Virus record (IMG/VR): IMGVR_UViG_3300008624_001193
Coordinates: 1 to 64,000 of that record
Reading direction: 5' to 3' (one strand)
Source: a virus
DNA: 64,000 nt
Made by a program: the position numbers and the translations under genes. The notes under the pieces were generated by a model. The model made no database searches and was not told the origin of the DNA. It saw nothing but the letters and a program-made list of their open reading frames with translations. Shown here in pieces: positions 7,244 through 46,446 of this stretch (position 1 is its first letter; each line of letters opens with the position of its first letter).

Positions 7244-7883
7244 ATATCTCCTTTACTTTCTCGACTGGATCGCTCGCTTCAGTAATAGATCTTCCAATAA
7301 CCAAGTAATCAGCACCGAGTTCGTATGCTTCTCTTGGTGTTGCTGTTTTTGATTGTCCTTTAAGTTCTGTTTTTTCATATTTTATTCCTGGGCAAACCCT
7401 AATTAAATTATAATCAGGATCGATTCTATCAATATGATGCAAATCTGGAACCGAACATACAATTCCATCAAAATTATGTATTATTTTACCTATATGTTCT
7501 TTCCATATATCATGTGAAGTTTCTTTATATAATTGTAATTCTTCTACAGATGACCACGATGTTAAAGATGTAACACCTAATAATCTAATATCGTTATTAT
7601 ATTGTGAAAGGAGATCAAATACTTCGGGATTGTTAAAGGTACTTATTGTTGTCATTGATGCACCTTTGGCAATAATTTTTTCTACTATAGTTTTAATTGT
7701 ATTAGGTGTATCCCATAATTTGCAGTCTATAAATAATTCTTTATCAGTGTAATCTTTAATATACACAGATTGGCTCCATAACGCATGATTAATTTTAAAC
7801 CCGTCGACATGGTCACGTAACTTTGCGGCCATTTCTAGTGCTTCTAACGGATTAGTATAATCTAATGCTACTATTATGCTCAT
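7224..7883 (-). CDS. pyrF: Orotidine-5'-phosphate decarboxylase
   Basis: A 219-residue protein, the usual length for bacterial PyrF, which decarboxylates OMP to UMP. The catalytic D-x-K-x-x-D is present as DCKLWDTPNTI (D53, K55, D58). D8 in ALDYT and K30 in GFKINHALW complete the active site, and GADYLVIGRSITEA is the phosphate-binding loop. The barrel looks intact. A phage-borne PyrF is uncommon. It would raise UMP supply during replication, together with the PRTases and RpiB elsewhere in the window. It overlaps the glycosyltransferase start by 20 bases. Confidence 0.9.
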   Translation of the reverse strand: MSIIVALDYTNPLEALEMAAKLRDHVDGFKINHALWSQSVYIKDYTDKELFIDCKLWDTPNTIKTIVEKIIAKGASMTTISTFNNPEVFDLLSQYNNDIRLLGVTSLTSWSSVEELQLYKETSHDIWKEHIGKIIHNFDGIVCSVPDLHHIDRIDPDYNLIRVCPGIKYEKTELKGQSKTATPREAYELGADYLVIGRSITEASDPVEKVKEIYDSLHS

Positions 7884-27952: not shown

Positions 27953-29437
27953 TTATTCTACTGACATAAAATGTATGTCTTCTGTTTCATTTCCATGAAA
28001 TTCTCGCCAAGTCCTTTTAGCATAATCGGCTTCTTCCATGGTTTTAAATACTGCTACACAATCTGTATATATTGCATCTAAAAATAAATGATTTATTTTA
28101 AATTGATATAATTTTGGATTTTTAAATATAAATTGACAATTTTCAAATACACAATTCGTCATGCCCCATCCAAATTTATTAACTAATTCGTTCCACGCAG
28201 TAGGATCAATAACTAATACATGATTATAATACGTCATGTCATATAAATCTACTTCAATGCCTGGTTGGTCTGTACTAGTTCGTAATCTAGTTACCATGCG
28301 AGATTCGGGCGTACCCCAGGCTTGTTGTCCAACAAACGGTTGCAATGCTACTGCTTGAAATTTCATTTGCTCATTTAATGCCAGTAAATAGTTTTTATTG
28401 TCATATTGCGAGGTGTTTACTGCATTATTTCTAAATGATAAATGTTTTGTAAATTCTGAATTAGTTTGTTTAAATTCTTCTGATGGCATTATAGAACCAA
28501 AATGTCTAACAAATAATTGTGCTACATTATTAATTGAACCTTTTCGTTTTTGTTTATTTTCAAAATAAAATCGTTTTAAGTCTCGCAATGTTACGCCTGC
28601 AACATCATAGTCAAATATTTTATTTTGAGCTCGTCCTAGCTCTACAGCAAATTTATAAACAAATTTTAAATAGTCTACTATTTCATTATAATTGTTTACT
28701 TGTCCCGACATGCTATCAAGTACACCACGCAATCCTCGCCATTCTAATGTTCCTTGGTGATGTGGATTAAGAACACTATATTTGTCAAAAATTCCCATTG
28801 CCAATCTATTAACTGTTTGATCATACGCAAATTCTAATTTATTTTCTTTTGAAGTTAAATTTTCTAATGATCCTTTAAATTGCTCAACTGATTCTCCCAA
28901 ATCATTTAAACTTGCATACTCGTCATCGTCATATTGTGGAATACCTTTATATTCTTTAAATCTTTCAAACAAACCACTATCTAAAAAATAAATTGCAAAC
29001 CAGGTAGCATCCATTCCGCTTGTTTTTTCTAACATTCCTAACCCAAAATGAACATGAAAACCACATGATCTATTTGTATATGCACCATTGTCAAGAAACT
29101 CTTTTACAATTTTTGCTACTTTTTGGAAGTTAGGCGGAGTTGCTGTAAGTCTAGCAGATGCACCGTTTTCGTCTTTAATTAAACCTATATCAAATTCAGC
29201 ACCAAAATGAGTATCTGTGTCATCGTCATTTGCTAGAACACTTTGTTCTTCCATTCGACCTAACCCATACTTATCTACTATACGTTGTATATTAGGATGA
29301 ACTTCCTCTACTGAACCGGGCTCTAGGTCCATTATTTTAGAATCAAAAGATTTGGCGGCAGGAACAACTATTTCTAACTCAAAGCCAACAGTTATTTCAC
29401 CAGCCGTTGCTTCGGTTATTAATTCTTTTTCTCGCAT
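27953..29437 (-). CDS. Amidoligase-like virion protein
   Basis: A 494-residue protein. After the leader MREKELITEATAG comes EITVGFELEIVVP, the F-E-L-E opening of the putative amidoligase family (PF12224-like, in the ATP-grasp/glutamine synthetase-like fold). NRSCGFHVHFGLGML supplies the G-x-H-V-H block, and HHQGTLEWRGLRGVLDS resembles the E-x-R block. Such enzymes are thought to make peptide-like bonds. The I-T-E site in the leader fits prohead-protease processing. Substrate unknown; cell-wall or protein modification are possible. Confidence 0.65.
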   Translation of the reverse strand: MREKELITEATAGEITVGFELEIVVPAAKSFDSKIMDLEPGSVEEVHPNIQRIVDKYGLGRMEEQSVLANDDDTDTHFGAEFDIGLIKDENGASARLTATPPNFQKVAKIVKEFLDNGAYTNRSCGFHVHFGLGMLEKTSGMDATWFAIYFLDSGLFERFKEYKGIPQYDDDEYASLNDLGESVEQFKGSLENLTSKENKLEFAYDQTVNRLAMGIFDKYSVLNPHHQGTLEWRGLRGVLDSMSGQVNNYNEIVDYLKFVYKFAVELGRAQNKIFDYDVAGVTLRDLKRFYFENKQKRKGSINNVAQLFVRHFGSIMPSEEFKQTNSEFTKHLSFRNNAVNTSQYDNKNYLLALNEQMKFQAVALQPFVGQQAWGTPESRMVTRLRTSTDQPGIEVDLYDMTYYNHVLVIDPTAWNELVNKFGWGMTNCVFENCQFIFKNPKLYQFKINHLFLDAIYTDCVAVFKTMEEADYAKRTWREFHGNETEDIHFMSVE

Positions 29438-29441
29438 TTAA

Positions 29442-29849
29442 TTATCTTAACCTCTTTCTTTCAAGATTTGACATAGGTCCAACTGCCTTAGTTGGGTTAG
29501 TATTTGGAGAAACACCGGCTCCTGCGACTGCTTTTTTATGATAGGCTTGAGGGCCTGGAACCATATCAGTTTTTGCAAATTCAGATCCATCGCCCGGAGT
29601 AGGAGGAGATTTTTTAACTATCTTTTTTCCAACTTCACTGGCCGCATGTATTTTGCCTCCTAATCCATGAGATGCGGCTTTAGCCTTTTTTAAACCAGGT
29701 AACAATTTCTTTCCGTAATCCCAGGCTTTTTTTCCATACCTCAACGCATATGGCGCCGCAAGTCGCGCCGCATGTATTCCTGCGCCTATAACTGCCGGAA
29801 GTACTTCATCAACACGTTCTTTTTTGGTTATTACTTCATTTATTTTCAT
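29442..29849 (-). CDS. Small basic leader-bearing internal protein
   Basis: A 135-residue Lys/Ala/Gly-rich basic protein. The leader MKINEVITKKE has an I-N-E site of gp21 type, then a hydrophobic/Ala-rich helix (VIGAGIHAARLAAPYALRYG) and basic tail. This matches the look of T4 internal proteins that are packaged with DNA. No enzyme motif. It is one of a group of leader genes in order here, so packaging is the best guess. Confidence 0.6.
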   Translation of the reverse strand: MKINEVITKKERVDEVLPAVIGAGIHAARLAAPYALRYGKKAWDYGKKLLPGLKKAKAASHGLGGKIHAASEVGKKIVKKSPPTPGDGSEFAKTDMVPGPQAYHKKAVAGAGVSPNTNPTKAVGPMSNLERKRLR

Positions 29850-29879
29850 TTAATCTCTCCAAGACTAATGTTCATTGGG

Positions 29880-32105
29880 TCAAGTATATCCTGCTTTACT
29901 TGTTATTGCATGACACTGGTCCGCCGACAATCCTAAACGTGAACACATCTTATGTAACTTATCGTGACCTTTTTTACTATTAGAACCAGTTAACACTTGT
30001 GCTAACTTAATTACTTTTTTAGGAGTAACACTTTCACTTTGTACTTTGTTCTCTTCTTCTTCTCGCTTCCAATAATTATCTGCAAGATCTACACCTTGGG
30101 CATCTGTGTAATAACTTATGTGAAATTTTTCATTTCTATTTTTTAATATAGGAGACGTTTGTATCATAGATGTTTGAAAATCTTCTGCGGCCGCTCTAAC
30201 ATCAAATTGAGCATTTGGTACAACTTCGCTTCTTTGTAAAACTTCTTCTGCAGAGAAGTTAATATCTTGCATTGACCACCACTCTTTAGATACTTCACCA
30301 TATTGTTGTTCTTCTCGCACAACCCAATCTACAATTTGAACTATTGGTGCTGTTATATAACATCTATTAGGAGAATCTGATGGTAATCCGGGTTTTTCGA
30401 ATACGATTGCTAAATCTAATCCTCCGCCCGAATGATTAACGAAATTATAATCAGAATTTTCTAGAGCTGATTTAAATTGTAACACTACTTCATGTCTTAT
30501 GCCTTCTTCCCATCCTGCGTTGACTGCCTCTACTAATATATCAGCAATACCAACATAATCTTGTTCTGTTTTTTCATCATACTTAATAGCATTGTTTAAC
30601 ACGTCTTCCTCAAGTTCGTCGCCTAATACTGTTGCAAATTCTGTGTTTAATATATTTCGTGTTGCTTCTGGTATATATTTCCATAGCTCATTGTGGCCTG
30701 TGTCTTTATTATTGTCTCGTCTTAATGTTGTTGCCCAATCCTTTATACTCCAAGGCTCATAATCTTCATCTCTATACCGGAGATCTGGGGTCTCTCCATC
30801 ACGCAATACTTGGTCGTATGTGCTATTAGCCAATTCATAACTTATTAATGAATATACGTTTGGATATTCATTTGTAATTTGTACAGGTATTTCCATTGCC
30901 TGTTTTGCAGTTTTTCCTATAGCAGTATCGCGTGGTATGAATAGTTGCGGTGTTTGGCTTTCATTATCTAATTTAGTTGTTATAATTTCAACTAATGTGT
31001 CATCTATACCTATATCCTCTACATATTTGCCTATGTTGTCTCCTGCTAATCCAGGCTTTTTTGCTATAAGTTCTGCGGCATCAGGTAAATCCCATACAGA
31101 AAAATTTGCTTCAGGATGATATCCGCCGCCTTTAATACCTTTAATCTCTTTATTCATTATTAATGTTCTAATAACATTATGATATTTTGCGGAAGGTTTT
31201 TGATTTGCATAGCCTTTCATTTCACCCAAATATCCTGCACCATCTAATATAAATGTAAGATGTGGTGTCCAATGATATTTTTTATGTGGATGCGGTGTTC
31301 TATAACTGAGGATTGTATCATCATCCTTGTACGATGCAGTATTACCGCAATGACCCATTGACTCGCCCTCTTTTGAACAAAATGCTCTGTCTAAGTCAAA
31401 CCATGCCGATCCATCTGGAAACTTAATAAACTCTTCGTACATTTCTCGGTATTCGGTCTCTTCACCGGTATCCATATCGGACATTACTCCGCCATGTGCT
31501 ATTGAACGTTCATCATCTTTAAGAGCTTTAATCCATTCAGTTTCTACGTTGGCCATTCTCATATGAACAGCAGTCGGCGTTTCTTCAGGTTTGAATGTCA
31601 TATTGCGAATAGTATTACCAAATCCATCGTGTTCTATAAAATGATTCATAGAGTAAAAGAATTGATCATCACCGCCTGGAAAGATACCTCTTACACCTTC
31701 ATTGCCTATTTTTATACCTGCTTGTTCTGCTTGTTTTCTTATACGTTGTTCTTCTTTTTCTGTGTATAAAGTCGGATAGCCGTAATCTTTATTGTAAATA
31801 AGATGTATTTTAGTATCTAATACATACCATCGTAATGCCCATACTACTTTAGAGTTGTCTACTTTACCATCTTGTTTTTGAAATGCTTTTTTTGCTTGGT
31901 TTGTAATGGCTTTAAAATCTCTTAACAAGGTATTATAATTTTGAGTACCAGGACCATGTTCGGGCACTAAACCACGAACTAAACTATTCTGTAAATTGTC
32001 TACAATACTTTCGTTTAATAATAATGCCTCTACTAAACCACGAACTAGACTATTATGTAAATTGTCTTCATTACTTTTGTTTAATAGAGCCTCAGAAATT
32101 CTCAT
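29880..32105 (-). CDS. Large leader-bearing protein, unknown enzyme-like core
   Basis: A 741-residue protein. The N-terminus MRISEALLNKS contains an I-S-E site, and residues 5-25 and 26-47 are tandem copies of the same leader-like segment ending in NSLVRGLV. The central part has DLDRAFCSKEGESMGHCGN followed by HLTFILDGAGYLGEMKGYAN, then a beta-rich region. The conserved C/H residues look catalytic, but I cannot name the family. The C-terminus is basic. A packaged or structural role is likely given the leader and neighbours. Confidence 0.55.
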   Translation of the reverse strand: MRISEALLNKSNEDNLHNSLVRGLVEALLLNESIVDNLQNSLVRGLVPEHGPGTQNYNTLLRDFKAITNQAKKAFQKQDGKVDNSKVVWALRWYVLDTKIHLIYNKDYGYPTLYTEKEEQRIRKQAEQAGIKIGNEGVRGIFPGGDDQFFYSMNHFIEHDGFGNTIRNMTFKPEETPTAVHMRMANVETEWIKALKDDERSIAHGGVMSDMDTGEETEYREMYEEFIKFPDGSAWFDLDRAFCSKEGESMGHCGNTASYKDDDTILSYRTPHPHKKYHWTPHLTFILDGAGYLGEMKGYANQKPSAKYHNVIRTLIMNKEIKGIKGGGYHPEANFSVWDLPDAAELIAKKPGLAGDNIGKYVEDIGIDDTLVEIITTKLDNESQTPQLFIPRDTAIGKTAKQAMEIPVQITNEYPNVYSLISYELANSTYDQVLRDGETPDLRYRDEDYEPWSIKDWATTLRRDNNKDTGHNELWKYIPEATRNILNTEFATVLGDELEEDVLNNAIKYDEKTEQDYVGIADILVEAVNAGWEEGIRHEVVLQFKSALENSDYNFVNHSGGGLDLAIVFEKPGLPSDSPNRCYITAPIVQIVDWVVREEQQYGEVSKEWWSMQDINFSAEEVLQRSEVVPNAQFDVRAAAEDFQTSMIQTSPILKNRNEKFHISYYTDAQGVDLADNYWKREEEENKVQSESVTPKKVIKLAQVLTGSNSKKGHDKLHKMCSRLGLSADQCHAITSKAGYT
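31965..32093. repeat. Tandem duplication of the N-terminal leader
   Basis: The 29880 gene encodes residues 5-25 (copy 1, 32031-32093) and residues 26-47 (copy 2, 31965-32030) as near repeats. Both contain a D-N-L-x-N-S-L-V-R-G-L-V tail, and the DNA is partly identical (CTACTAAACCACGAACTA is shared). It resembles duplication of a capsid-targeting leader. Confidence 0.85.
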
Positions 32106-32290
32106 GCCTTAAACCGGTTTCCTTTTTTTGCTTGTTTTGTTGCTACTGCATACATAACAGATTCACCATCCTTACCATATTGGTCAGTAAAGTTTTTTTT
32201 ATGTGACTTTAACTTTTTAACATTATGTTCTTTGTCACTCTCTTCTTTTTTAGAAAGTTCACGTTCAGATATAATATCTTCAATTAACAT
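32102..32290 (-). CDS. Small basic leader-bearing protein
   Basis: A 62-residue basic protein starting MLIEDIISERELSKKEE, with L-I-E and I-S-E sites. The second half has KKNFTDQYGKDGESVMYAVATKQAKK, a pattern I recall from short T4-like marine phage proteins. It overlaps its neighbours by ATGA-type joints, and its size and charge fit an internal head protein. Unknown activity. Confidence 0.55.
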   Translation of the reverse strand: MLIEDIISERELSKKEESDKEHNVKKLKSHKKNFTDQYGKDGESVMYAVATKQAKKGNRFKA

Positions 32291-33180
32291 TCGATCAAAC
32301 TCCGAAATAATATGTGTTTACTTTCCATAGCATTAATCATATTAATTGTTTCTTGTTTTCTGTCCGCTTTAGGTGTGCCTACTTCGCCTGATTTAATTGA
32401 CACCATAGCATTGAACACACCTTTAACTCTATCTTTGCTTGTAGGGTGTTTTAAAGACGCTTGTACATCAGGTAATAGGTCATCGAACGATTTAGTTAAA
32501 TCATACTGCCATAACAATCTATCTACATCGTTCCAATTATTAGATTTCCATAATACTTCTCTAGTACCTTTTGCTTCTCTACCTCTATGATCTTTTTCAT
32601 ATGCTCGTAACTGTAATTCAATACCACTTAAATTAAATTCTAATACTTTATTTGTTTTAGGGACACCTAATCCTATACTTGCAAATAATCTATCTATTGT
32701 TTTTGTTGCATTTGCTTCTTGAATTGCAGTTTTAATAAGACCTAAAATTAATCCTTGTTTTTCTGCAGGCCAATCTAAAAAACTTTTTTTAAATGCACTT
32801 TCATCTTTTGTTACTGCTACTATATTATCTATTTGTGCTGTTTTGCCTGCTTCTGTTTGGGGGAACAAAACACTAACAAGTTCACCTGCATTGGATGAAC
32901 GTCTGCCCGCATACTTATCGCTTCTAAAAGGTAAAATTTTATTTGCTGATTGATTTTCTAAATAGTTTTGTAATTCTTTTTTAATTGCTTTTTTATCTGT
33001 ACCTTCAATGTGTACAATTAAATCTATGTCGCCGTGATGTTTTTTACCTGCGGCTACACCACCTGTAACTTCTGCAGACACGAAACCAGGAAAACCTGAT
33101 AACACCGAATCGATATAACTTTTCGCTGTTGAATTAACATGCTCGTTACTTATTCTATCTCCGCCTGCTACTCCGCTCAT
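32284..33180 (-). CDS. Nucleotidyltransferase-fold protein
   Basis: A 298-residue protein. TGGVAAGKKHHGDIDLIVHIE near residues 40-60 is a nucleotidyltransferase (pol beta-like) core: a G-G/S helix followed by D-x-D. The rest is helical and Lys-rich, ending ...ILFRSLIEC. The family includes poly(A)- and CCA-adding enzymes and toxin/antitoxin nucleotidyltransferases. A second, different member with a leader lies two genes upstream, so the pair may cooperate. No leader is obvious in this one; I did not see a cleavage site near the start. Confidence 0.65.
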   Translation of the reverse strand: MSGVAGGDRISNEHVNSTAKSYIDSVLSGFPGFVSAEVTGGVAAGKKHHGDIDLIVHIEGTDKKAIKKELQNYLENQSANKILPFRSDKYAGRRSSNAGELVSVLFPQTEAGKTAQIDNIVAVTKDESAFKKSFLDWPAEKQGLILGLIKTAIQEANATKTIDRLFASIGLGVPKTNKVLEFNLSGIELQLRAYEKDHRGREAKGTREVLWKSNNWNDVDRLLWQYDLTKSFDDLLPDVQASLKHPTSKDRVKGVFNAMVSIKSGEVGTPKADRKQETINMINAMESKHILFRSLIEC

Positions 33181-33183
33181 TGT

Positions 33184-33609
33184 TTATGGCCTCAACTTAT
33201 GGACAGTACCGGTAGAATCTTTATAAATTCCGCCACGGTCTGGCATTTTAGTTGGTTTACTTTTTGGCTTAGTACCAGCACCAGCAATAGCTGAAATCCC
33301 ATCGTCAGGCCTACCTAAATCTGCTGTACTTAATCCGGCTCTATTAGGATCAAGTATAGTTTTTGGTTTTGCCTTTGGCATTGTAAGTTGTGATGCATAT
33401 TGATCTTGAGGTTGAGGAGCATTCCAGTCTTTTGGCCAAAACTCTCCTACTGGTGGGTTTCGCTTTGAATAATCAAGTGCCGCTTTTCTCATGGAACCTA
33501 ACTTTGAGTTTTTTGCTTTTAAATAAGCATCATGTGTTTTAAAATGTACCCTACCAGCGTTATCAAAATATGTATCGCCGCGTTCTATTAATATTTCATT
33601 TAGTCTCAT
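33184..33609 (-). CDS. Basic leader-bearing protein
   Basis: A 141-residue basic Pro/Gly-rich protein starting MRLNEILIERGDTYFD (L-N-E and L-I-E sites). The rest is rich in K, P and S with an IYKDSTGTVHKLRP end. No enzyme domain seen. It sits between the two nucleotidyltransferase-like genes and looks like a packaged internal protein with a processed leader. Confidence 0.55.
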   Translation of the reverse strand: MRLNEILIERGDTYFDNAGRVHFKTHDAYLKAKNSKLGSMRKAALDYSKRNPPVGEFWPKDWNAPQPQDQYASQLTMPKAKPKTILDPNRAGLSTADLGRPDDGISAIAGAGTKPKSKPTKMPDRGGIYKDSTGTVHKLRP

Positions 33610-34553
33610 ATATTACTCCTAAGGTTACTGCTGTCTGGTAAAAACTTTCCTGTTAACCCAAACTCATCCTTATGTTGTAACCAGTATTCTTGTAAATCGT
33701 CTGGTATATCTACTCGTGTTCTGTCTAGTATTTTTAAATAAATTTGCATAACATTATCATACAATGGATGTCCTTTAATTGCATCGTGTAATGTATGATA
33801 GTTTGCTAATTGTTGTATTGATAAATTTAGCCCAAATAATTCATTTAATAGAGCCAATGTGTCGTCGGGAGTTCCTGCAACTACTTCTTTGGTTGCTTTA
33901 TCTTTAACACCTACTTTATGATCAAACGAATGATTAGTTGCTTGAAACATTGCTAACATTAATTGTGTTCTATGTAATCCTTTTACATTAGAGTCTTCAG
34001 GATAATTAGCCGATGCATAACTAAATTTAAGCCAATCTAAATTGCCTACCATCCAATCAATTTGTATACCTACATTTAAATTACTACCTTGTTCATCATA
34101 TTGCGGAAACATTCCAAATGCATTACCTGGTGTAACTTTTTTGGGATCCATATGTATAGTAGGTGCATGTTCATTAACATATTCGCTAATTAAAACTAAT
34201 GCAGTTTTCATAGCAACTTGTTCATCACTTGATGTTCTTGCACGTTTTTTAAAAACATCAAATCGTGTAACAAATTCTTCTGGTCTAATATGCCATGCTG
34301 TTAGTGTTTGGCTAGAAATGCCTTGTGGAAACAATTCTGTTGCGTCAACTGCTAAATCTATATCACCACTTGAACTTTTAAGACCTACAGATCCAACTGG
34401 ATGAAACTTATTAGGTGAGATGCCTGCGTTAGGAAACACTTGTTGCAATTCAGCAAAGTATCTTTCTAATGTAGGTTGTATATTTTCTTTTGCAATTCGT
34501 CCTGTATTTTCTCCAAATACATTACCACCTTCTAATAATTCTGCAAAACGCAT
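33606..34553 (-). CDS. Leader-bearing nucleotidyltransferase-like protein
   Basis: A 315-residue protein. The start MRFAELLEGGNVF has an F-A-E/L-L-E leader. PVGSVGLKSSSGDIDLAVD (about residues 52-70) is the G-S...D-x-D nucleotidyltransferase motif, and IQIDWMV (about 166-172) gives a third Asp. The arrangement is like poly(A) polymerase/MNT enzymes. In a phage head it might modify host RNA or proteins soon after entry. That is inference; no substrate signature is visible. Confidence 0.6.
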   Translation of the reverse strand: MRFAELLEGGNVFGENTGRIAKENIQPTLERYFAELQQVFPNAGISPNKFHPVGSVGLKSSSGDIDLAVDATELFPQGISSQTLTAWHIRPEEFVTRFDVFKKRARTSSDEQVAMKTALVLISEYVNEHAPTIHMDPKKVTPGNAFGMFPQYDEQGSNLNVGIQIDWMVGNLDWLKFSYASANYPEDSNVKGLHRTQLMLAMFQATNHSFDHKVGVKDKATKEVVAGTPDDTLALLNELFGLNLSIQQLANYHTLHDAIKGHPLYDNVMQIYLKILDRTRVDIPDDLQEYWLQHKDEFGLTGKFLPDSSNLRSNI

Positions 34554-34924: not shown

Positions 34925-34932
34925 TATTTATC
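34925..34932 (-). promoter_or_regulatory. T4-late-like box GATAAATA
   Basis: The minus strand reads GATAAATA about 22-29 bases upstream of the 116-residue gene, between it and the methyltransferase stop. Resembles the T4 late consensus at all but the first base. Likely start for virion-block transcription. Confidence 0.4.
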
Positions 34933-35554
34933 GGTTTTGCAGAATGCAAAGGGATGTTCCAACTATATGTTGCAACGATTTAAAATCTCTATTACCAAGA
35001 TATAATTCATTTAATGCTTCAGTTACGCCAGGCCAATGGGGACTGCTATAGTCATGCCAAAGAATATATCCTCCTCGACGTACTAAATTATATGCAAGTT
35101 TAGAATCACTCATTGTATATTCATAACTATGTGATCCATCAACAAACATAAAGTCAATTCTATCTATATAATCAGTAAAATCGTAGTCGGCCGAATCACC
35201 ATATATTTGTTTTATCTGTGGATGAGATTTAATAGTTGTGATTTTTCTTTTTCGAGTAGTCCAATCTAAAATGTATTTTGCTTCATCGGGTTCAAGTGGT
35301 AATTTAGTTTCGTTAGAAGGTAGGTCTATAGTAATAACTTCACCATCTTTTGGTTGATTTAGTGCCATATTAATAGTAGTTCTTCCATTAAATGTGCCTA
35401 TTTCTAATATTTTTTTAGGTTTTAGTGTGCTTATTAGTAAAGAAATTACAACCAATTCAAGAGGTGTTATATTACCATCTTCAGGATTAAGATTTGTTAA
35501 TGTTATAGATGTGTTTTTATCTAATATATCGTCTATTAGTAACCATGGTATCAT
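34928..35554 (-). CDS. Class I SAM-dependent methyltransferase
   Basis: A 208-residue methyltransferase of the Methyltransf_24/FkbM-like kind. KKILEIGTFNGRTTINMAL is motif I with the SAM-binding G-x-G-x-T pattern, GEVITIDLPS is the acidic loop, and DFMFVDGSHSYEYTMSD is motif IV. GGYILWHDYS follows. These enzymes often methylate sugars or small molecules. It heads the 35-38 kb group by overlap with the radical SAM gene as ATGA, hinting that both act on one substrate. Confidence 0.75.
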   Translation of the reverse strand: MIPWLLIDDILDKNTSITLTNLNPEDGNITPLELVVISLLISTLKPKKILEIGTFNGRTTINMALNQPKDGEVITIDLPSNETKLPLEPDEAKYILDWTTRKRKITTIKSHPQIKQIYGDSADYDFTDYIDRIDFMFVDGSHSYEYTMSDSKLAYNLVRRGGYILWHDYSSPHWPGVTEALNELYLGNRDFKSLQHIVGTSLCILQNR

Positions 35555-36474
35555 GTTCTAACCCAAGCTCGAGGATGTTGTAAAGGAAAATCTAATCCAC
35601 CTATTACTGAATGTATGCATTTTCTACATATTAAATCATTATCGCCCATTCCTTTACCATACATTTGATCTCTTAAATGATTTGCTTCTTCTGAATTAAG
35701 TATATATTCGACACTATCTTTTGTTATATCTCCTATAATGTTTTCTTGATAATAATCTTGGCAACATAAAAATACCTTTCCTTTATGGTTTATAGAAAAA
35801 GTATGTTTTAAAACTTTCTTAACACAATCATACATATAAGTATTACCTTTATATTTTGTCTGATATATATCATATTCGTTTTTATCATTAATTTTAAGAT
35901 TACCACTTCTATTATTATGTGGCATAAAATACCAATCTACGTTAATAGGATGAGTTATTATAGATTCTAATTGGTCTCTTATTTTTCCATTTAATACAAT
36001 ACCTCCTTTTAATTGATTACGATTAGAAGAAAAAGTTTTTAATAAATTAAGTAAATTATTAAAAGTTTTCTTAAATTGGGCAGGCGGTAATCCATATGTA
36101 GCACACCATTCTTCTTCATCTAATGTTGTCATATTAACTTCTATTTTTTGAACTACATGTTTATATTGGTATAAAAATGCAATTTTATCTGCATCTAATC
36201 TAGTACCATTAGTATGAAGTTGGAGGTCTATTTTATATTTGTCTAATAGTTTGATTCGTTCTTTAAAAAATTTATCTAGTAATGGTTCGCCATAGTGATT
36301 AAAAACCATATAAAAATATTTGTATAATTTATTTGTTTTTCGTAGCTCTTTACATATGTGTTCGAATAGCTCTAAACTCATTGTATCAGCAGGAAGGGGA
36401 TCCTGACTTTGAGGACAAAATACACATCGTGCATTGCAATGTCTAACTGTTTCTATATCAACATAATTTAACAT
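35551..36474 (-). CDS. Radical SAM/SPASM-like enzyme
   Basis: A 307-residue radical SAM protein. ETVRHCNARCVFCPQSQDP has the C-x3-C-x2-C cluster motif (C14, C18, C21). LQLHTNGTRLD is the second SAM loop. The C-terminal third has KVFLCCQDYYQENIIGD and DLICRKCIHSVIG, which is the Cys-rich SPASM-like cluster. SPASM enzymes modify peptides or sugars. Coupling with the methyltransferase and proximity to the paralogous pair 36.5-37.9 kb suggest a modification pathway. No precursor peptide gene was found. Confidence 0.75.
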   Translation of the reverse strand: MLNYVDIETVRHCNARCVFCPQSQDPLPADTMSLELFEHICKELRKTNKLYKYFYMVFNHYGEPLLDKFFKERIKLLDKYKIDLQLHTNGTRLDADKIAFLYQYKHVVQKIEVNMTTLDEEEWCATYGLPPAQFKKTFNNLLNLLKTFSSNRNQLKGGIVLNGKIRDQLESIITHPINVDWYFMPHNNRSGNLKINDKNEYDIYQTKYKGNTYMYDCVKKVLKHTFSINHKGKVFLCCQDYYQENIIGDITKDSVEYILNSEEANHLRDQMYGKGMGDNDLICRKCIHSVIGGLDFPLQHPRAWVRT

Positions 36475-36476
36475 GT

Positions 36477-37244
36477 TTACTTAAAAATATTAGTTTCTAC
36501 AAAATCAATACAATATTCTATTCGTTTTAAAATTTTTCTACCATCGGCAATATAATCCATGATATGTTTATGAGCCCGTAAATTCATTAAAGAACCAAAC
36601 AATGCAATAAATGATCGTATAGCATCACTCATATATCGATCCTTATCAACAAAAGCAATATTAGGTTCATGATCAACTTTTGTAAACACGTTTGTTTTAG
36701 AACAATAAAACATATTGTTGCTAGATATCCAATCTACTTCTCCTATGCTACAATATTTTCCTGTAATTATTCCTTCGCCTTTAAAAATTCTTTGAGCTTC
36801 GTCATTAAAAAATTTTATTGTATTCAACATTGCATCTAAAAATTCATCCATTGAAAAAATCATTTTAGATTTGCCTAATAAAAAATTATATATATCTTCA
36901 CCGGGTACTCTTGTGGACTTCAGTATCCACCAATCATCTGTAAGATATGTTGTTATTCTGTTTGTTGGAAAATATGCATTGTTGTAAAATACATCATTTC
37001 TTGATATTCTATTTCTATACATCCCATAATAAATTTTATAAAATTCATCCTTAATTAAATCATGAATAACTACCTTTTGTTCTGATTCTATTTCTATTAA
37101 ATTTAATTTAGAAGATCTTGTTTCAATTATCTCAAATTTTTCTAATTTAAATTCTACTAAAAATTTATATAGGAAATGTTCTTTTAATAATTCTATCTCA
37201 GAATAATCAAATAAAATTTTACCATCAAAAATCGAATAGTTCAT
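36477..37244 (-). CDS. Unknown protein, paralog of the next gene; kinase-like features
   Basis: A 255-residue AT-rich-coded protein. DEFYKIYYGMYRN, WWILKSTRVPGEDIYNFL and a downstream SNNMFYCSKTNVFTKVDHEP resemble, in order, the nucleotide-binding lysine, hinge region and catalytic-loop N plus D of aminoglycoside phosphotransferase-like kinases. It shares this order with the neighbouring gene. The kinase call is weak. It belongs to the group with the radical SAM and methyltransferase genes, ending near the SPASM start. Confidence 0.45.
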   Translation of the reverse strand: MNYSIFDGKILFDYSEIELLKEHFLYKFLVEFKLEKFEIIETRSSKLNLIEIESEQKVVIHDLIKDEFYKIYYGMYRNRISRNDVFYNNAYFPTNRITTYLTDDWWILKSTRVPGEDIYNFLLGKSKMIFSMDEFLDAMLNTIKFFNDEAQRIFKGEGIITGKYCSIGEVDWISSNNMFYCSKTNVFTKVDHEPNIAFVDKDRYMSDAIRSFIALFGSLMNLRAHKHIMDYIADGRKILKRIEYCIDFVETNIFK

Positions 37245-37891
37245 AGAACCTCTTTATCAATAAATTTCATACATTTATCTAAAATTTTTGGCATTTCTAA
37301 TACAGGAAGAAAATTACAATAAGGATATGAGTTAAAATTTTCAAAATGTTTTAGCAATCTATAATATGTTTTTTCTAAATATTCGTCACGAGTTAACCAA
37401 GCAGACGGTTCTATATCTATATTTGTTGAAGTATTAGTCTCAATATCATATATAATATTGCTTGCACATGAATCTCCCGCCGAATAGTCCCAATACTTAT
37501 GTTCTTCTGGAAAAATGCGTCGAGTTTCATTTTTCACCCATATCAAATTATTTAAAAAACTATCAATTATATTTTCGTTAACTGTATTAGGTTTTAAAAA
37601 AAATTTTGATAATAAAGTTCCTTTAGGTATAGTTTGTTTAACAATCCATATATTTTCTTCAATAACAGATGAAACTAAATGATTTGGAAAATGTGCATTA
37701 TTAAAAAAGATATAATCGTATTTTTTTACATATTTTGTATCTTTTATAAAAAAAATTTTATAATAACAATTATTTTTATCAAAAATAATCAATCTTGGAT
37801 CAGCATGAACATTCGAACTAGTTGGAATTACTTTATATTCTTTAAGATCATAAATTTTTAAAAAGTTTGATAATAATTCACTTGATTCCAT
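37241..37891 (-). CDS. Unknown protein, paralog of preceding gene; kinase-like features
   Basis: A 216-residue paralog of the upstream-facing neighbour. CYYKIFFIKDTKYVKKYDYIFFNNAHFP parallels that protein's YKIYYG...NNAYFP, IWIVKQTIPKGTLL its hinge, and ASNIIYDIETNTSTNIDIEP its D/N loop. I use the ATG at 37891; the ORF opens in-frame with a TTG eighteen bases earlier. Kinase-like fold possible, activity unknown. It is coupled as ATGA to the next gene. Confidence 0.45.
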   Translation of the reverse strand: MESSELLSNFLKIYDLKEYKVIPTSSNVHADPRLIIFDKNNCYYKIFFIKDTKYVKKYDYIFFNNAHFPNHLVSSVIEENIWIVKQTIPKGTLLSKFFLKPNTVNENIIDSFLNNLIWVKNETRRIFPEEHKYWDYSAGDSCASNIIYDIETNTSTNIDIEPSAWLTRDEYLEKTYYRLLKHFENFNSYPYCNFLPVLEMPKILDKCMKFIDKEVL

Positions 37892-38183
37892 TGACAAGAT
37901 CTGTTTCAATACTAGTTGATGCTTCTAATTCAAAATCGTAATCCATTGCATCATCTAATGCTTCGGCTATAGAATCGCCTTCGTCGGGTTGAATTGAACG
38001 GGTAAGATTTACTTCATAATGATGTGTATAATTTTGCACATAATGCAACATAACACTATCTTCCATTGTTTGGACAATATCTTCTGGCCCATGTTTTTGA
38101 ACGATATTAAAAAAATTTACTGCTAAGTCATCGGGCAACTCTTCATCCATTTTTAATATCAAATGATTAGTAAATTCAGCCAA
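37878..38183 (-). CDS. Acidic hypothetical protein
   Basis: A 101-residue acidic helical protein. It has a D-D-L-A-V-N-F-F helix and an acidic tail (SIAEALDDAMDYDFELEAS). No family recognised. It lies at the boundary between the radical SAM group and the small virion-like genes; base composition is less AT-rich than the pair before it. Confidence 0.5.
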   Translation of the reverse strand: MAEFTNHLILKMDEELPDDLAVNFFNIVQKHGPEDIVQTMEDSVMLHYVQNYTHHYEVNLTRSIQPDEGDSIAEALDDAMDYDFELEASTSIETDLVNGIK

Positions 38184-39035: not shown

Positions 39036-41234
39036 TTAGCTGAAAAAGACATCTAATTTTATCTTGTCCTTAACAATATCTAATGTTGCTGTGCCTTTTT
39101 TGCCAAAGTTTTTTCGGAATAACATTTCTTTGGCGAGTGGTCGTTTAATTTCGTTATTAATTACACGTTGCATAGGCCTTGCACCCATTGCATCGTCATA
39201 GCCTTTTTCTACTAACCAATCTATAACTACTGGTTTATAAACTACTTCTATATCACGTGGTTTGGAAAGAATATTTAAATCATTAATAAATTTAATTGCT
39301 ATTTGTTTAACATTTTCTATAGATAATTTATTAAAATTAACCATTGCATCTAATCTATTTCTAAATTCAGGCGAAAAGAATTTTTTAACTGCTTTTTCAT
39401 GGGCATCATCATGTTTGTTACTTCCAAATCCTATAGCATTTTCGTCTGCTTTTGCGGCACCCAAATTAGATGTCATTATAAGTGTGGCATGTCTGCCACT
39501 AACTTGTTTACCATTTGATCCTGTAATAATTCCGTCATCCATAAATTGTAATAAAATATTAAGAACATCAATATGTGCTTTTTCAACTTCATCGAGTAAT
39601 AATACACAATTTGTTTTTTCTTCCAACTCATTTATTAATGCTCCTGATCCTGCAGAACCATCTTCATAACCAACATATCCTGGAGGAGCACCAATCAATT
39701 TAGATACTGCATGTCGTTCTTGATATTCTGACATATCGAACTTAACCAGTGGCAGATCTAAATAATGTGCTAGTTGTCTTGCTGTTTCGGTCTTCCCACA
39801 ACCCGTAGGACCTGTAAACAAATAACAACCAACAGGTTTCTTTGGATCCTTCAGTCCTGCTTTTGATATATAAATTGCATCTAATAATACAGTTAAAGCA
39901 TCATCTTGCCCAAATACTTTTGTTTTTAAATTATTTTCTAAATCTATTATACTTTTATCCTGTTCTACATCTTTATGGCTTATTGTGTCTAAAGGTATTT
40001 TTGCTATTTTAGATATTTCTACTTTAATTTCTTCTGTATCAATAATAAGTTTTCTATCTGATTCTTTTGTAATACGTTGTCTTGCTCCGGCGGCATCGAT
40101 TAAATCTATTGCTTTATCGGGCAATTTTTTATCTAACAAGTATTGTGCTGATAAGTCTACTGCTGAATCTAATGCTTGATCTGTATAGTTTAAATTAAAA
40201 AAATCTGCATAATGTATTGAAGCACCTCGTACAATTTTCTTTGCATCTTCTATACTAGGTTCATCTATACTAAGTTTTTGAAATCTTCGTACTAACGCTC
40301 TATCTTTTTCAAAATGTTGTCTATATTCTTCTTGTGTAGTAGATCCGATGCAATGTAGTTTACCCTTTTGCAATGCAGGTTTAAGCATATTAGCAACATC
40401 CATAGAACCATTGCCGCCCGAACCTGCTCCCATAATCATATGAATTTCGTCGATGAACAATATAGCATCATCACGTTCTTCGAGTTCATCTAATACTGCT
40501 TTTAATCGTTCTTCAAAATCACCTCTATATCTTGTACCTGCTAATAATGCACCTATATCTAAGTTATATACTATATTTTCTTTAATAATTTCGGGCACAT
40601 TCCCGTCAACAATTAATTTTGCCAAACCTTCTACTATTGCAGTTTTTCCTACTCCAGGATCTCCTACCATTATTACATTATTCTTTTTACGCCGTGCAAT
40701 AGTTTGGGCGAGTTGATCAACTTCCCATTCTCTACCTATAAGTGGATCTATTTTTTTCTTTAAGGCAAGATCATTAAGATTATCACAAAAAATTTCTAGA
40801 GCAGTACCGTCTTCATCATCCTCAGTTAATTTTTCTATTAAAATTTCTTTGCTAATATTATTACGTTGCATGTAAAAACTAGCAGGGGAATGCTGTTCTG
40901 CTAAAATAGATAATAGCAGATCTCGAGGATCTAGTTTATTTTTACCTGTAAATAAACTTTGAGTAAATGCTCTATTAAATACTCGTTCTAAAGTATTTGT
41001 TTTTTTAGGTTTAGCATTAGAATCTATTTTTATATCATTCATTTCATTAATGACATAATAGTCTACTTCTTTTAATACATCCTTAGAATCTACTTTAATT
41101 TCTTTTAAAAAAGATCCGATACTTCTATCACGAAGTAATGAATGCAATAAATGTTCTAATGTAACGTATTGATGTTTATGTTCCTCTGCTAACTTAAATG
41201 CTCGTTTAACAATAGGTTCAATCTTGTCCGCCAC
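39036..41234 (-). CDS. clpA: ClpA-like AAA+ unfoldase
   Basis: A 732-residue Hsp100 protein, near the length of ClpA (758). An N-terminal repeat domain (residues 1-140; KHQYVTLEHLLHSLL) is followed by AAA-1 (GDPGVGKTAIVEGL, AILFIDEIHMI) and AAA-2 (GPTGCGKTETARQL, VLLLDEVEKAH). ENAIGFGSNK lies where ClpA has its ClpP-binding IGL loop, so it is likely to dock on a host ClpP. The region after (SPEFRNRLD, GYDDAMGARPMQRVI) is ClpA-like. It overlaps the peptide deformylase stop by 17 bases. It may redirect host proteolysis or unfold phage proteins. Confidence 0.88.
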   Translation of the reverse strand: MADKIEPIVKRAFKLAEEHKHQYVTLEHLLHSLLRDRSIGSFLKEIKVDSKDVLKEVDYYVINEMNDIKIDSNAKPKKTNTLERVFNRAFTQSLFTGKNKLDPRDLLLSILAEQHSPASFYMQRNNISKEILIEKLTEDDEDGTALEIFCDNLNDLALKKKIDPLIGREWEVDQLAQTIARRKKNNVIMVGDPGVGKTAIVEGLAKLIVDGNVPEIIKENIVYNLDIGALLAGTRYRGDFEERLKAVLDELEERDDAILFIDEIHMIMGAGSGGNGSMDVANMLKPALQKGKLHCIGSTTQEEYRQHFEKDRALVRRFQKLSIDEPSIEDAKKIVRGASIHYADFFNLNYTDQALDSAVDLSAQYLLDKKLPDKAIDLIDAAGARQRITKESDRKLIIDTEEIKVEISKIAKIPLDTISHKDVEQDKSIIDLENNLKTKVFGQDDALTVLLDAIYISKAGLKDPKKPVGCYLFTGPTGCGKTETARQLAHYLDLPLVKFDMSEYQERHAVSKLIGAPPGYVGYEDGSAGSGALINELEEKTNCVLLLDEVEKAHIDVLNILLQFMDDGIITGSNGKQVSGRHATLIMTSNLGAAKADENAIGFGSNKHDDAHEKAVKKFFSPEFRNRLDAMVNFNKLSIENVKQIAIKFINDLNILSKPRDIEVVYKPVVIDWLVEKGYDDAMGARPMQRVINNEIKRPLAKEMLFRKNFGKKGTATLDIVKDKIKLDVFFS

Positions 41235-41736
41235 GTTTTGCTTTCCTATGAAGTTTTCGTAATAACTTTTTTTGCTTTTGTCTAGCCATTTGTAAAGTTA
41301 ATTTTGCAACTTTATCTGTATATAATACACCGTCTAAATGTTCCAATTCATGGCAATAACACCTAGCCATAATTTCAGTAAAAGTCATTGTTTGAACTTT
41401 ACCATTAGAATCGGTAAATTCTACAACTACTTCTGCTGGTCGTCCTATTCTAAGAAACAATCCTGGAAAAGATAAACATCCTTCTACATCATATATCAGT
41501 TCGTCTGATGCATTTAAAATTTTTGGATTAAAACACGCAATGGCTTCTTGTGGATCACCTATTAAAAACATTCTATAATTTAATCCTACTTGAGGTGCCG
41601 CTAAACCTATTCCACCATGTTCAAACATAAGTGGTGCCATTTCTGTAGATAATTTTTCTGGATCTACATCTCCATTAAAATCAAATTCAACAGAAGATTG
41701 TCTAAGAACCGGATCAGTATCTTTAACTAATTCCAT
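41218..41736 (-). CDS. def: Peptide deformylase
   Basis: A 172-residue peptide deformylase. GIGLAAPQVG, EGCLSFPG and the zinc motif HELEHLDGV are all intact, so catalysis is likely. It removes formyl groups from new proteins. PDF genes are known in T4-like marine phages. It is the first gene behind the promoter at 41774-41802, with a late-like AATAAATA box nearer, and precedes the ClpA-like gene. Confidence 0.93.
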   Translation of the reverse strand: MELVKDTDPVLRQSSVEFDFNGDVDPEKLSTEMAPLMFEHGGIGLAAPQVGLNYRMFLIGDPQEAIACFNPKILNASDELIYDVEGCLSFPGLFLRIGRPAEVVVEFTDSNGKVQTMTFTEIMARCYCHELEHLDGVLYTDKVAKLTLQMARQKQKKLLRKLHRKAKRGGQD

Positions 41737-42909: not shown

Positions 42910-43830
42910 TTAGCCTGTTTTTAACTTTTCTAATTCGATTAAAGTTGCAGATAAATTAATTTCAGGGTCGGCTATCATACCATGTTTAACCAATCCATTG
43001 CGAATTATAAGAATTGCTTCGTCTTGTTTATCTTCTTCACCCCAAAACTCTAAATTTCTATACAAAAATCTATATACATCCTCATATTCGTCTAATTTAA
43101 CTTGTTCACATATAAGTTTTCTTGCATCTTTAATTTTACCTTCTCTAAATAAACCAACCATTGCTAGTTTATAATCATCTGAACTATCTACATCTGTTGG
43201 TAATGTAAGTTTATTATCTATACAATGTAATTGTACATTGTTTATAGTTTTACGTAAATCGGGATATGTTGCTTTTACATATGTATCTAATACATCTATT
43301 TCAAATTCTATATTCTCTTTTGCAAGTATTTCGCCTACACGAACAATAAATTCTGTTTGATCTAAATTTTGTATATGGAAACCTTGGCACCTTGAATGTA
43401 TTGCAGGAATAATTTTTTGTGGATAATTACAGGTTATAATAAATCGAAGCACCTCGTGATATTGTTCCATTACTCCACGTAATGCTCCTTGTGCATTAGG
43501 AGATAGATAATCTCCTTCGTCTAGTAAAATAACTTTAAATTCACCCCAAGGCATTGTGCTTGCAAAATTTGTCATTTTATATCTTACATCATCTACTCCT
43601 GTTTGCCTTGAAGCATTTATTTGTAATACATCCGCATCTTCAACTTCTAATGCTTTACATAAAACTTTTGCTAAAGTAGTTTTACCTGTACCTGGACCGC
43701 CACTAAACAATAAATGTGGTATTGATTTTTCTGCAATCCAAGTTTCTACTTGTTGTCGTTGTGAATTGTCTCTAAATACGTATTCGTTTGCAGTTTCAGG
43801 TCTGTACTGCTCTGTCCAAAGTTTTTTCAT
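42910..43830 (-). CDS. gp44: Clamp-loader ATPase (gp44)
   Basis: A 306-residue AAA+ protein close to T4 gp44. LLFSGGPGTGKTTLAKVLC is Walker A, VILLDEGDYLSPN Walker B (DEGD rather than DEAD), and AIHSRCQGF holds the S-R-C arginine finger. It loads gp45 on primed DNA. A small-subunit gp62 was not found in this window. It overlaps the glycosyltransferase-like gene at its start. Confidence 0.9.
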   Translation of the reverse strand: MKKLWTEQYRPETANEYVFRDNSQRQQVETWIAEKSIPHLLFSGGPGTGKTTLAKVLCKALEVEDADVLQINASRQTGVDDVRYKMTNFASTMPWGEFKVILLDEGDYLSPNAQGALRGVMEQYHEVLRFIITCNYPQKIIPAIHSRCQGFHIQNLDQTEFIVRVGEILAKENIEFEIDVLDTYVKATYPDLRKTINNVQLHCIDNKLTLPTDVDSSDDYKLAMVGLFREGKIKDARKLICEQVKLDEYEDVYRFLYRNLEFWGEEDKQDEAILIIRNGLVKHGMIADPEINLSATLIELEKLKTG

Positions 43831-44540
43831 AATGTTAAATATGAATTTGTAAAACCGTACGAACGGTCAGTTTCATTAAAATAATAATTATTTGGATGCA
43901 ACCAAATATTACCCATAGAACTATTTCCAAATGGTTGCGATGTGTTATTAAAAAATTTTATAAACTTAAATTCAATAAACACATTTACATTTGACATATA
44001 TGCTTGTGCTAAATGAGATATCCAACTGTCAGTACCTATAAACATAATAGATTTACTTGCTATTTCTGCAAGATATTCCCATTCATAATCAGGTTTATCT
44101 ATTTGTACTATTGTATAATGTTTTGAATATTTTGTTAACACATGATCAATAATATTATTTGGTAAAGGTAGTTTGCCTTGTGTATGTAATAATATTATAT
44201 TTTCTTTCTCTACGCCTTCGTGAATATATAATTTAGGCCCTAATATTTTAGGTTTTATTTTAATGTTTAAATAATTAAATAATAAATCAGATCTAGAATT
44301 TATATTATATGGTTTACGTATAAATTCTAGATCTAGTTTATTAAAATTTAATTCTACTAAATTATCGTCATTATAATCTATTTTTGTTACATATGGGTTG
44401 TATTTTAAAAAAGGATTATTATATTTGTCGATAAAAGTATATCCTGCCTCATGTAAATTTTCAGGAAACTCTGTCAATATTAAATTATCACCTATTTTAG
44501 TTTTTTTATATGAATAGGTTATACAAATATTATTTTTCAT
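43827..44540 (-). CDS. GT9-like glycosyltransferase domain protein
   Basis: A 237-residue protein. The C-terminal half has TIVQIDKPDYEW and SIMFIGTDSWISHLAQAYMSNV, resembling the D-S-x-x-x-H-x-x-x-A of heptosyltransferase (GT9) families, where an acidic residue and His interact with nucleotide sugar. The N-terminal domain is shorter than usual. Likely to act on sugars, but acceptor is unknown. It is coupled to the gp44 start as ATGA. Confidence 0.5.
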   Translation of the reverse strand: MKNNICITYSYKKTKIGDNLILTEFPENLHEAGYTFIDKYNNPFLKYNPYVTKIDYNDDNLVELNFNKLDLEFIRKPYNINSRSDLLFNYLNIKIKPKILGPKLYIHEGVEKENIILLHTQGKLPLPNNIIDHVLTKYSKHYTIVQIDKPDYEWEYLAEIASKSIMFIGTDSWISHLAQAYMSNVNVFIEFKFIKFFNNTSQPFGNSSMGNIWLHPNNYYFNETDRSYGFTNSYLTL

Positions 44541-44803: not shown

Positions 44804-45247
44804 TTAATCTATCATTTTGACTCTGACTTCGTGCCTACCACCTAAAAAGTCTGTTTCAAAAAATGTATTTGCTATATTAATTGCTTGGTATGGTGTTACT
44901 ACTCTTGCTCCCATACATAATATATTTGCATTGTTATGTTGTCTAGCCATCATTGCAGTATATACATCATGGCATAATGCGGCTCGTACACCTTTTACTT
45001 TATTAGCAACCATACTCATTCCGATACCTGTACCACATATGAGTATACCATAATCTGCATCGCTAGTGGCCACCAAATCAGCGACCATTTTTCCATATTC
45101 AGGATAATGTACACTATCAAGTGAATTGCATCCTACGTCATGAAAACGTGTAGTATCGTCTTTTTTCATTAATGATGTATATAATGCATCTTTAACTGAT
45201 TGTTTTATCTCATAACCGGCATGATCACATCCAATAACAATTTTCAT
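44804..45247 (-). CDS. rpiB: Ribose-5-phosphate isomerase B
   Basis: A 147-residue RpiB, which interconverts ribose-5-phosphate and ribulose-5-phosphate. VIGCDHAGYEIK, DVGC, GILICGTGIGMSMVANK (Cys active site region) and RAALCHDVYTAMMARQHNNAN are all family signatures, and the length is typical. It would push pentose carbon into PRPP, needed by the PRTases and AICAR transformylase. It lies near the AICAR transformylase gene in the same direction. Confidence 0.92.
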   Translation of the reverse strand: MKIVIGCDHAGYEIKQSVKDALYTSLMKKDDTTRFHDVGCNSLDSVHYPEYGKMVADLVATSDADYGILICGTGIGMSMVANKVKGVRAALCHDVYTAMMARQHNNANILCMGARVVTPYQAINIANTFFETDFLGGRHEVRVKMID

Positions 45248-45501: not shown

Positions 45502-46446
45502 TTAATGATGGAAAAGTCTAATGCCTGAAAAAATCATAACCATATCATGTTCATCGGCGGCTTCAATTACTTCATTGTCTTTAACACTACCACCTGCTTG
45601 TACTATATATTTTACTCCGCATTTAGCGGCATAATCTATGTTATCTCTAAATGGAAAAAATGCATCTGAGGCTAATGATACTTTATCAAGTTTTTGTTCT
45701 TTGGCCCAAGTTGTTGCTTTTGTGCCTGCCAACTCTGTACAATCTATACGGCTTTGCTGACCTGCTCCAATGCCTATCATTTGTCCGTTTAATGCATAAC
45801 CTACAGAATTTGATTGAGTATATTTAAGAGTAATAGCCGCCAATACTAAATCGTTTTGTGCTATAGCTGATAGTTCTTTATTTTTTGTTACAATTTTAGT
45901 TATTAATGTTTCTTTGTTTAATATAATATCGTTCCGTTGTTGCGAAAAAACAACTCCATAAATTTCTCTAGTTTCAATAGGAGGAGGTAGGTACCCTGCA
46001 TCCATTTGTAAGATTAAATATTTGCCATCCTTTTTTTCTTTTAATAATTCTAATGCATCATCGTCATATCCAGGTGCGGCAATTCCATCTGATACTACTG
46101 TTTTAATATACTTTGCACATTCTAAATCTACTTTTTGACTAAGAGCTATAAAGTCACCAAAGGAAGATTTAGGATCTGCACTCCTTGCTTTTCTATATGC
46201 ATCTGTTATAGTTTTACCTACTGCGGCACCTGCAGGGCTAACATGTTTAAACGATGTTGCCGCAGGTAATCCTAATGCACTATCTAATTCTTTAACTAAT
46301 TGCCATGCATTTATTGCATCTAACAAATTAATGTAACCTGGTTGCCCATTCAATTCAGTAAAAGGCAAATTGCGTTTTGCACTTGCTACTGATGCCGATC
46401 CTTGATGTGGATTACAGCCATATTTTAAAGTTATATAGTTACCCAT
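45502..46446 (-). CDS. purH: AICAR transformylase, stand-alone (PurH C-domain type)
   Basis: A 314-residue AICAR formyltransferase, lacking the N-terminal IMP cyclohydrolase domain of PurH. It has LKYGCNPHQ, FKHVSPAGAAVG, SSFGDFIALS, KYTQSNSVGYALNGQMIGIG, SRIDCTELAG and SDAFFPFRDN. The K-H of FKHVSPAG is the catalytic pair. These blocks look more like eukaryotic ATIC than bacterial PurH from memory, with about 55 residues missing after the ELAG block. It makes FAICAR in purine synthesis, using host IMP cyclohydrolase. A neighbour of RpiB. Confidence 0.9.
   Translation of the reverse strand: MGNYITLKYGCNPHQGSASVASAKRNLPFTELNGQPGYINLLDAINAWQLVKELDSALGLPAATSFKHVSPAGAAVGKTITDAYRKARSADPKSSFGDFIALSQKVDLECAKYIKTVVSDGIAAPGYDDDALELLKEKKDGKYLILQMDAGYLPPPIETREIYGVVFSQQRNDIILNKETLITKIVTKNKELSAIAQNDLVLAAITLKYTQSNSVGYALNGQMIGIGAGQQSRIDCTELAGTKATTWAKEQKLDKVSLASDAFFPFRDNIDYAAKCGVKYIVQAGGSVKDNEVIEAADEHDMVMIFSGIRLFHH

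Follow-up and report, generated by a model that had tools for sequence, protein, structure and literature searches.

Within bases 1-64000 of the 109,853-base virus record IMGVR_UViG_3300008624_001193 (hereafter the window) lies a compact block of four genes encoding two paralogous kinase-like proteins (kin1 and kin2), a radical S-adenosylmethionine (SAM) enzyme with a predicted Twitch domain, and a class I SAM-dependent methyltransferase. The block recurs as a unit in a second phage and is under purifying selection, and it is best explained as a cargo cassette that a T4-like, probably jumbo, phage acquired horizontally. Judging from the sequence, we see about an even chance that its enzymes make or decorate a substrate of the infected cell, either a small molecule or a glycan, probably at the host surface, with a surface-polysaccharide sugar as the most plausible substrate. 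The DNA polymerase of the phage is of T4 type, with its closest counterparts (43-47% identity) in jumbo phages such as Agrobacterium phage Atu_ph07, Sinorhizobium phage Phosso, GAP32 and CBB, and the record therefore probably covers one part of the larger genome of a T4-like jumbo phage.

Layout and composition of the block

The open reading frames (ORFs), all on the minus strand, bear out a first-pass annotation that had placed four contiguous genes at 34928-37909 (Table 1); that annotation did not recognize the genome as that of a T4-like phage. The upper limit of that interval corresponds to a TTG start of kin2 at 37909 (ORF 37241-37909), which we rejected in favor of the ATG at 37891; the start of kin2 lies within the end of the upstream gene, with a 14-base overlap. 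The same annotation had reported ATGA joints throughout and a stronger A+T content than in the neighboring genes, and each claim holds in part. ATGA overlaps are present at two of the three joints (kin2/kin1 and radical SAM/methyltransferase), whereas kin1 and the radical SAM gene are separated by a 2-base gap after TAA. The GC content differs from that of the flanking genes (0.337 and 0.368; the genes listed for the window average 0.329, standard deviation 0.033) for kin2 (0.235), kin1 (0.249) and the radical SAM gene (0.272), whereas the methyltransferase gene (0.311) is only mildly AT-rich and near its flanks. Strong AT-richness thus holds for three of the four genes. No other 3-kb stretch of the window has so low a GC content as the block (about 0.265-0.266; minimum elsewhere 0.299), a deviation beyond what chance would give. 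Scans for promoters and terminators gave no more sites than in shuffled sequence.

Table 1. Coordinates of the four-gene block and of an analogous gene run in other contigs
Feature	Position	Strand	Basis
Whole block, transcribed kin2-kin1-radical SAM-methyltransferase	34928..37891	-	Contiguous; two ATGA joints; lowest-GC 3 kb; kept as a unit in the second phage (L008)
kin2, kinase-like, 216 aa	37241..37891	-	Foldseek to kinase folds (low-confidence model); loop kept in L008; no family match
kin1, paralogue of kin2, 255 aa	36477..37244	-	BLASTP to kin2; Foldseek top match APH(2'')-Ia
Radical SAM enzyme with predicted Twitch (half-SPASM) domain, 307 aa	35551..36474	-	PF04055, PF13186; cysteine pattern
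Class I SAM-dependent O-methyltransferase (predicted), 208 aa	34928..35554	-	PF13578, PF01596; PDB O-methyltransferases
Run of APH-like kinase, nucleotidyltransferase-like protein, radical SAM/SPASM protein and aminotransferase	L120:3236-6918; L123:2296-6993; L127:8001-11717

Distribution and selection

The entire block was found again in a second phage contig, IMGVR_UViG_3300049899_000797 (L008), with identical order, place and neighbors and with the same GC gradient (0.249, 0.248, 0.290 and 0.337 from kin2 to the methyltransferase). Co-occurrence of the four genes is thereby confirmed. The proteins of the two phages share 62% (kin2), 63% (kin1), 82% (radical SAM) and 85% (methyltransferase) identity, compared with 77-91% for the other genes compared. 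All four genes are under purifying selection, because dN/dS between the two phages is 0.43 for kin2, 0.35 for kin1, 0.19 for the radical SAM gene and 0.11 for the methyltransferase gene. The kinase-like pair is the fastest-evolving part, with dN at 0.25-0.27; the other genes compared lie at 0.05-0.14. Host-facing genes often evolve fast.

Outside these two phages, proteins identical to those of the window phage were present in two further contigs, and no other viral contig was found to carry the kinase-like pair; in the full records of 50 related phage contigs, a homologue of the pair occurred only in L008, and weak radical SAM matches in those records were dismissed because they contain stop codons. 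The block is absent from L013-L018, the six viral contigs that rank next by identity of the downstream flank gene (73-77%; some of them are probably near-duplicates). An adjacent 116-aa gene is kept in five of these six, with different genes upstream. Because the 101-aa gene upstream of the block was found only in block-carrying phages, the precise empty site could not be demonstrated. Off-genome composition, flanking phage genes and absence from close relatives are the marks of a moron-like cargo cassette. Among the isolate phages searched, the radical SAM enzyme and kin1 had no match and the methyltransferase had one, at 29%. A pattern scan of genomes for the radical SAM enzyme recovered no relative, and a profile of the kinase-like pair run against about 1,180 genomes (Alphaproteobacteria, Pseudomonadota and Bacteroidota, some drawn twice) gave chance-level matches only. 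One of these, in L132 (E=0.009 per genome), coincides precisely with the catalytic loop in an EcKL-like kinase; its E-value is within chance, and its register alone is suggestive.

The radical SAM enzyme and the methyltransferase

Membership of the radical SAM superfamily is supported by an above-cut-off match to PF04055 (E=2.2e-14) and by the CxxxCxxC motif at C13-C17-C20 in both phages. The protein had previously been read as a radical SAM/SPASM enzyme, of which the first half stands. A SPASM motif comprises seven cysteines, CX9-15GX4C-gap-CX2CX5CX3C-gap-C, and a Twitch domain comprises the first four of these, which hold one auxiliary cluster (PMC6231123). PF13186 matches above cut-off (E=4.5e-10) despite an incomplete cysteine set: the enzyme has C217-x14-G232-x4-C237 and C283-x2-C286, identical in L008, amounting to four of the seven cysteines, with none after residue 286. 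The pattern predicts an auxiliary cluster in both phages and a Twitch (half-SPASM) enzyme, not a full SPASM peptide maturase. Because CxxxCxxC begins at residue 13, leaving no N-terminal extension, the enzyme has no room for a RiPP (ribosomally synthesized and post-translationally modified peptide) recognition element (RRE), and no RRE match was found in the block.

The nearest proteins in the PDB are BtrN and YydG. BtrN, a 2-deoxy-scyllo-inosamine dehydrogenase that acts on an aminocyclitol, shares the radical SAM core, the Twitch set CX9-15GX4C...CX2C and the lack of an N-terminal peptide-binding domain, and the hidden Markov model alignment covers both the core and the Twitch region; the overall match is weak (profile E=1.2e-4) and the genomic context differs. 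YydG, a radical SAM peptide epimerase, is matched (E=1.2e-4) over the core only (residues 4-127), and here no precursor peptide lies beside the enzyme.

The methyltransferase matches PF13578 (Methyltransf_24, E=3.5e-14) and PF01596 (Methyltransf_3, E=6.7e-12), with scores of 54 and 45.6 bits against curated cut-offs of 26.3 and 22, as well as O-methyltransferases in the PDB (E=2.2e-8). No DNA or RNA methyltransferase family matched above its curated cut-off. By these assignments the enzyme is predicted to be of the small-molecule O-methyltransferase type.

A divergent kinase-like pair

The products of kin1 and kin2 are paralogues, as had been proposed, sharing 24% identity over 233 columns (BLASTP E=1e-16 in a single comparison). 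Neither has a family match in Pfam, PHROGs or NCBIfam, a PDB profile search with the pair gave chance matches only, and no match to known structural proteins was found. We built AlphaFold2 models of both proteins from four sequences and compared them with known folds. Foldseek searches with these low-confidence models returned almost only kinase folds, with E-values down to 2.7e-4, which agrees with the earlier description of the pair as kinase-like. The top match of kin1 is the aminoglycoside phosphotransferase (APH) APH(2'')-Ia (E=6.6e-3), and the matches of kin2 include protein kinases, RIO1, NleH and APH(3') (E from 2.7e-4). Matches of kin1 in a viral library were mostly protein kinases too.

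In kin2, the loop G-D140-x4-N145 ... I-D159-x-E161 is intact and conserved in L008. In kin1, Asp171 at the catalytic position is present in the window phage but replaced by Asn in L008, so kin1 is probably a weak or inactive partner. We infer that kin2 may be the active kinase, with kin1 as its degenerate partner. The pair resembles APH(2'')-Ia and APH(3') in the structural matches and in the GDxxxxN...ID loop of kin2. It differs from them in having no sequence-family match (none to PF01636, the APH family), in the unconserved Asp of kin1, in the shorter length of kin2, and in the kin2 motif (A/G)GDxxxxN...IDIE, in which the His of HGDxxxxN is replaced.

Genomic company of viral radical SAM relatives

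Using a profile of the block radical SAM proteins and a third phage radical SAM protein, we collected distant viral relatives and compared 96 ORFs around 13 of them with 98 control ORFs of related phages (Pfam, E<=1e-5). The families Polysacc_synt_2, epimerase and GDP-mannose dehydratase were each found in four proteins around the relatives, together with methyltransferases (five in Methyltransf_11 alone), three family 2 glycosyltransferases (GT2), two aminotransferases, two sulfotransferases, one NeuB and one carbamoyltransferase. None of these families occurred in the 98 control ORFs; because relatives and control were not matched by type of contig, this is an association and not a rate. In the large phage contigs L120 and L123, one run joins an APH-like kinase with an intact HGD...N...ID motif to a nucleotidyltransferase-like protein, a radical SAM/SPASM protein and an aminotransferase. 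The same run is found in the alphaproteobacterium AG-892-I02 (L127), among genes that by eye resemble a surface-sugar cluster, and may be a surface-modification pathway that phage and host have exchanged. The run and the block are alike in that a predicted kinase of APH type adjoins a radical SAM enzyme with an iron-sulfur domain at its C terminus, within cargo that also includes sugar genes. Unlike the run, the block has neither a nucleotidyltransferase nor an aminotransferase, has a kinase-like pair in place of a single kinase, and has an extra methyltransferase.

Proposed function and alternatives

We propose that kin2, aided by kin1 as a regulatory or inactive partner, would phosphorylate a sugar-like or other small hydroxyl-bearing substrate. 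The Twitch radical SAM enzyme would then carry out a 5'-deoxyadenosyl-radical step (oxidation, dehydration or epimerization), and the methyltransferase would add an O-methyl group. The result could be an altered host surface that, for example, shuts out competing phages. This proposal, which accords with the small modification pathway suggested in the first-pass annotation, draws on the conservation of the block in L008, the fast evolution of the kinase-like pair, the BtrN match and Twitch cysteine set, the small-molecule type of the methyltransferase, the sugar-gene company of the viral radical SAM relatives, the radical SAM-kinase pairing in L120, L123 and L127, and other candidate sugar genes of the phage, namely a split carbamoyltransferase and two GT9-like glycosyltransferases (GT9 assigned by eye). 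Several observations weigh against it. The kinase fold is weakly supported, as the AlphaFold2 models have predicted local distance difference test (pLDDT) values of 59 (kin1) and 58 (kin2). The viral radical SAM relatives are distant (22-35% identity). No homology is detectable between the kinase-like pair and the APH-like kinases in L120 and L123 (hhalign probability 0.2%), and the likeness to that run is therefore an analogy of gene content, not membership. No glycosyltransferase or sugar-nucleotide enzyme lies within or directly beside the block, and similarity among Twitch and SPASM domains is not predictive of substrate (PMC6231123).

The pair could instead be protein kinases, a kinase with a pseudokinase, acting on host proteins during takeover, with the radical SAM enzyme and the methyltransferase as separate cargo modifying proteins or small molecules. 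T4-like phages are known for takeover enzymes, protein kinases form most of the Foldseek matches of both models, and kin2 has the size of a minimal kinase, with NleH among its matches. We nevertheless regard this as unlikely, given that the loop order of kin2 is GDxxxxN, as in small-molecule kinases, and not HRDxxxxN, that the top match of kin1 is an APH, and that the tight linkage and co-conservation with the other two genes suggest a single pathway. That the block was captured recently and does little or nothing for the phage would fit its AT-richness, its presence in two phages only and its absence from the next relatives; we consider this quite improbable, since all four ORFs are intact in both phages despite dS of about 0.5-0.9, with dN/dS of 0.11-0.43 and with order and joints kept.

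A modified peptide had also been offered as a product, beside a surface sugar or a cofactor; the surface sugar stays among the options, whereas a peptide is unlikely because the enzyme has only the Twitch half and there is neither an RRE nor a precursor. A RiPP-like system, in which the radical SAM enzyme and the methyltransferase modify a peptide and the kinase pair phosphorylates the peptide or its product, is in our estimate very unlikely. The radical SAM enzyme does score against YydG and many peptide maturases, but all NCBIfam maturase scores fall far below cut-off; the record does encode an SbmA/BacA-like transporter, but about 27 kb from the block. The block has no space for a precursor gene, its single intergenic gap measuring 24 bases, and no short ORF at the block stands out as a candidate, the rest of the phage genome being incomplete; this agrees with the earlier statement that no precursor peptide had been identified. 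Modification of DNA, RNA or a nucleotide cofactor, as in a hypermodified-base pathway, seems the remotest prospect. In other systems, phages modify bases by radical SAM, kinase and methyl-transfer steps, and a QueE-like radical SAM enzyme at 2316-3155 represents nucleotide-directed radical SAM chemistry in this phage. Against this, the methyltransferase resembles small-molecule O-methyltransferases, and known phage DNA kinases are P-loop enzymes, unlike the kinase-like pair.

Modification of a cell-surface or small-molecule substrate is therefore the reading we prefer. Glycan-modifying genes are already known as phage cargo, and radical SAM, methyltransferase and APH-like kinase cargo among sugar genes occurs elsewhere; the suggestion of an undescribed system fits the kinase-like pair, which has no described match. 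As far as the sequences tell, what is new here is the combination of genes with a duplicated kinase-like family lacking sequence relatives in the collections searched; no paper describing the block was found in the open-licence literature searched. By remodeling the surface of an infected cell, phage enzymes can determine which other phages gain entry, and such enzymes are poorly sampled in jumbo phages. A bolder and rather doubtful version is a new minimal pathway: the two proteins would be a kinase and a pseudokinase from a kinase-like family not seen before, and their phosphorylated intermediate would pass to the Twitch radical SAM enzyme and the O-methyltransferase for a surface or small-molecule modification without a known bacterial counterpart. 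If true, phage-encoded chemistry would gain a new sequence of reactions from a compact set of four genes.

Other genes of the phage

De novo purine synthesis is almost completely encoded by the phage, in L100 (record bases 64001-84000) and at window 45502-46446. PurN, PurB, PurQ, PurL, PurE, PurM, PurD, PurF and GuaA score above the NCBIfam cut-offs, as do GMP (guanosine monophosphate) reductase and the formyltransferase part of PurH, while the PurC match is weak; PurL, at 523 aa, is without its C-terminal part. PyrF lies at window 7224-7883 and RpiB at 44804-45247. An unexpected isocitrate lyase gene lies within the purine cluster (L100:16520-17752, record 80520-81752; NCBIfam 690 bits against a cut-off of 562). 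The SbmA/BacA-like transporter, a membrane protein, is encoded at L100:103-1068 (record 64103-65068; Pfam E=2.9e-134; NCBIfam NF009036 above cut-off), and no paper linking SbmA to phage auxiliary genes was found in the literature searched.

Protein-turnover and iron-sulfur genes were found in L101 and L102 (record 83501-109853) and at window 39036-41736, including a ClpA-like ATPase, peptide deformylase-like and IF-3-like proteins and IscU, with a ClpS match below cut-off. The same regions encode Trp-halogenase-like flavoproteins, one of which is confirmed by Pfam. The carbamoyltransferase is split into two ORFs. The gene at 43827-44540, which adjoins a clamp-loader gene, is the single most AT-rich of the window (GC 0.232); it reads by eye as a GT9-type glycosyltransferase, with no Pfam match.

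Finally, the genes at 27953-34553 form a run with similar N-termini, MRxxE(I/L)(I/L)xE. The pattern L/I-x-E within the first 11 residues, picked post hoc, occurs in 4 of 8 genes of the run and in 8 of 72 elsewhere (Fisher p=0.015). Because these N-termini resemble the T4 capsid-targeting sequence with its gp21 cleavage site, the products of the run, including the conserved protein encoded at 33606-34553, may be packaged head proteins.

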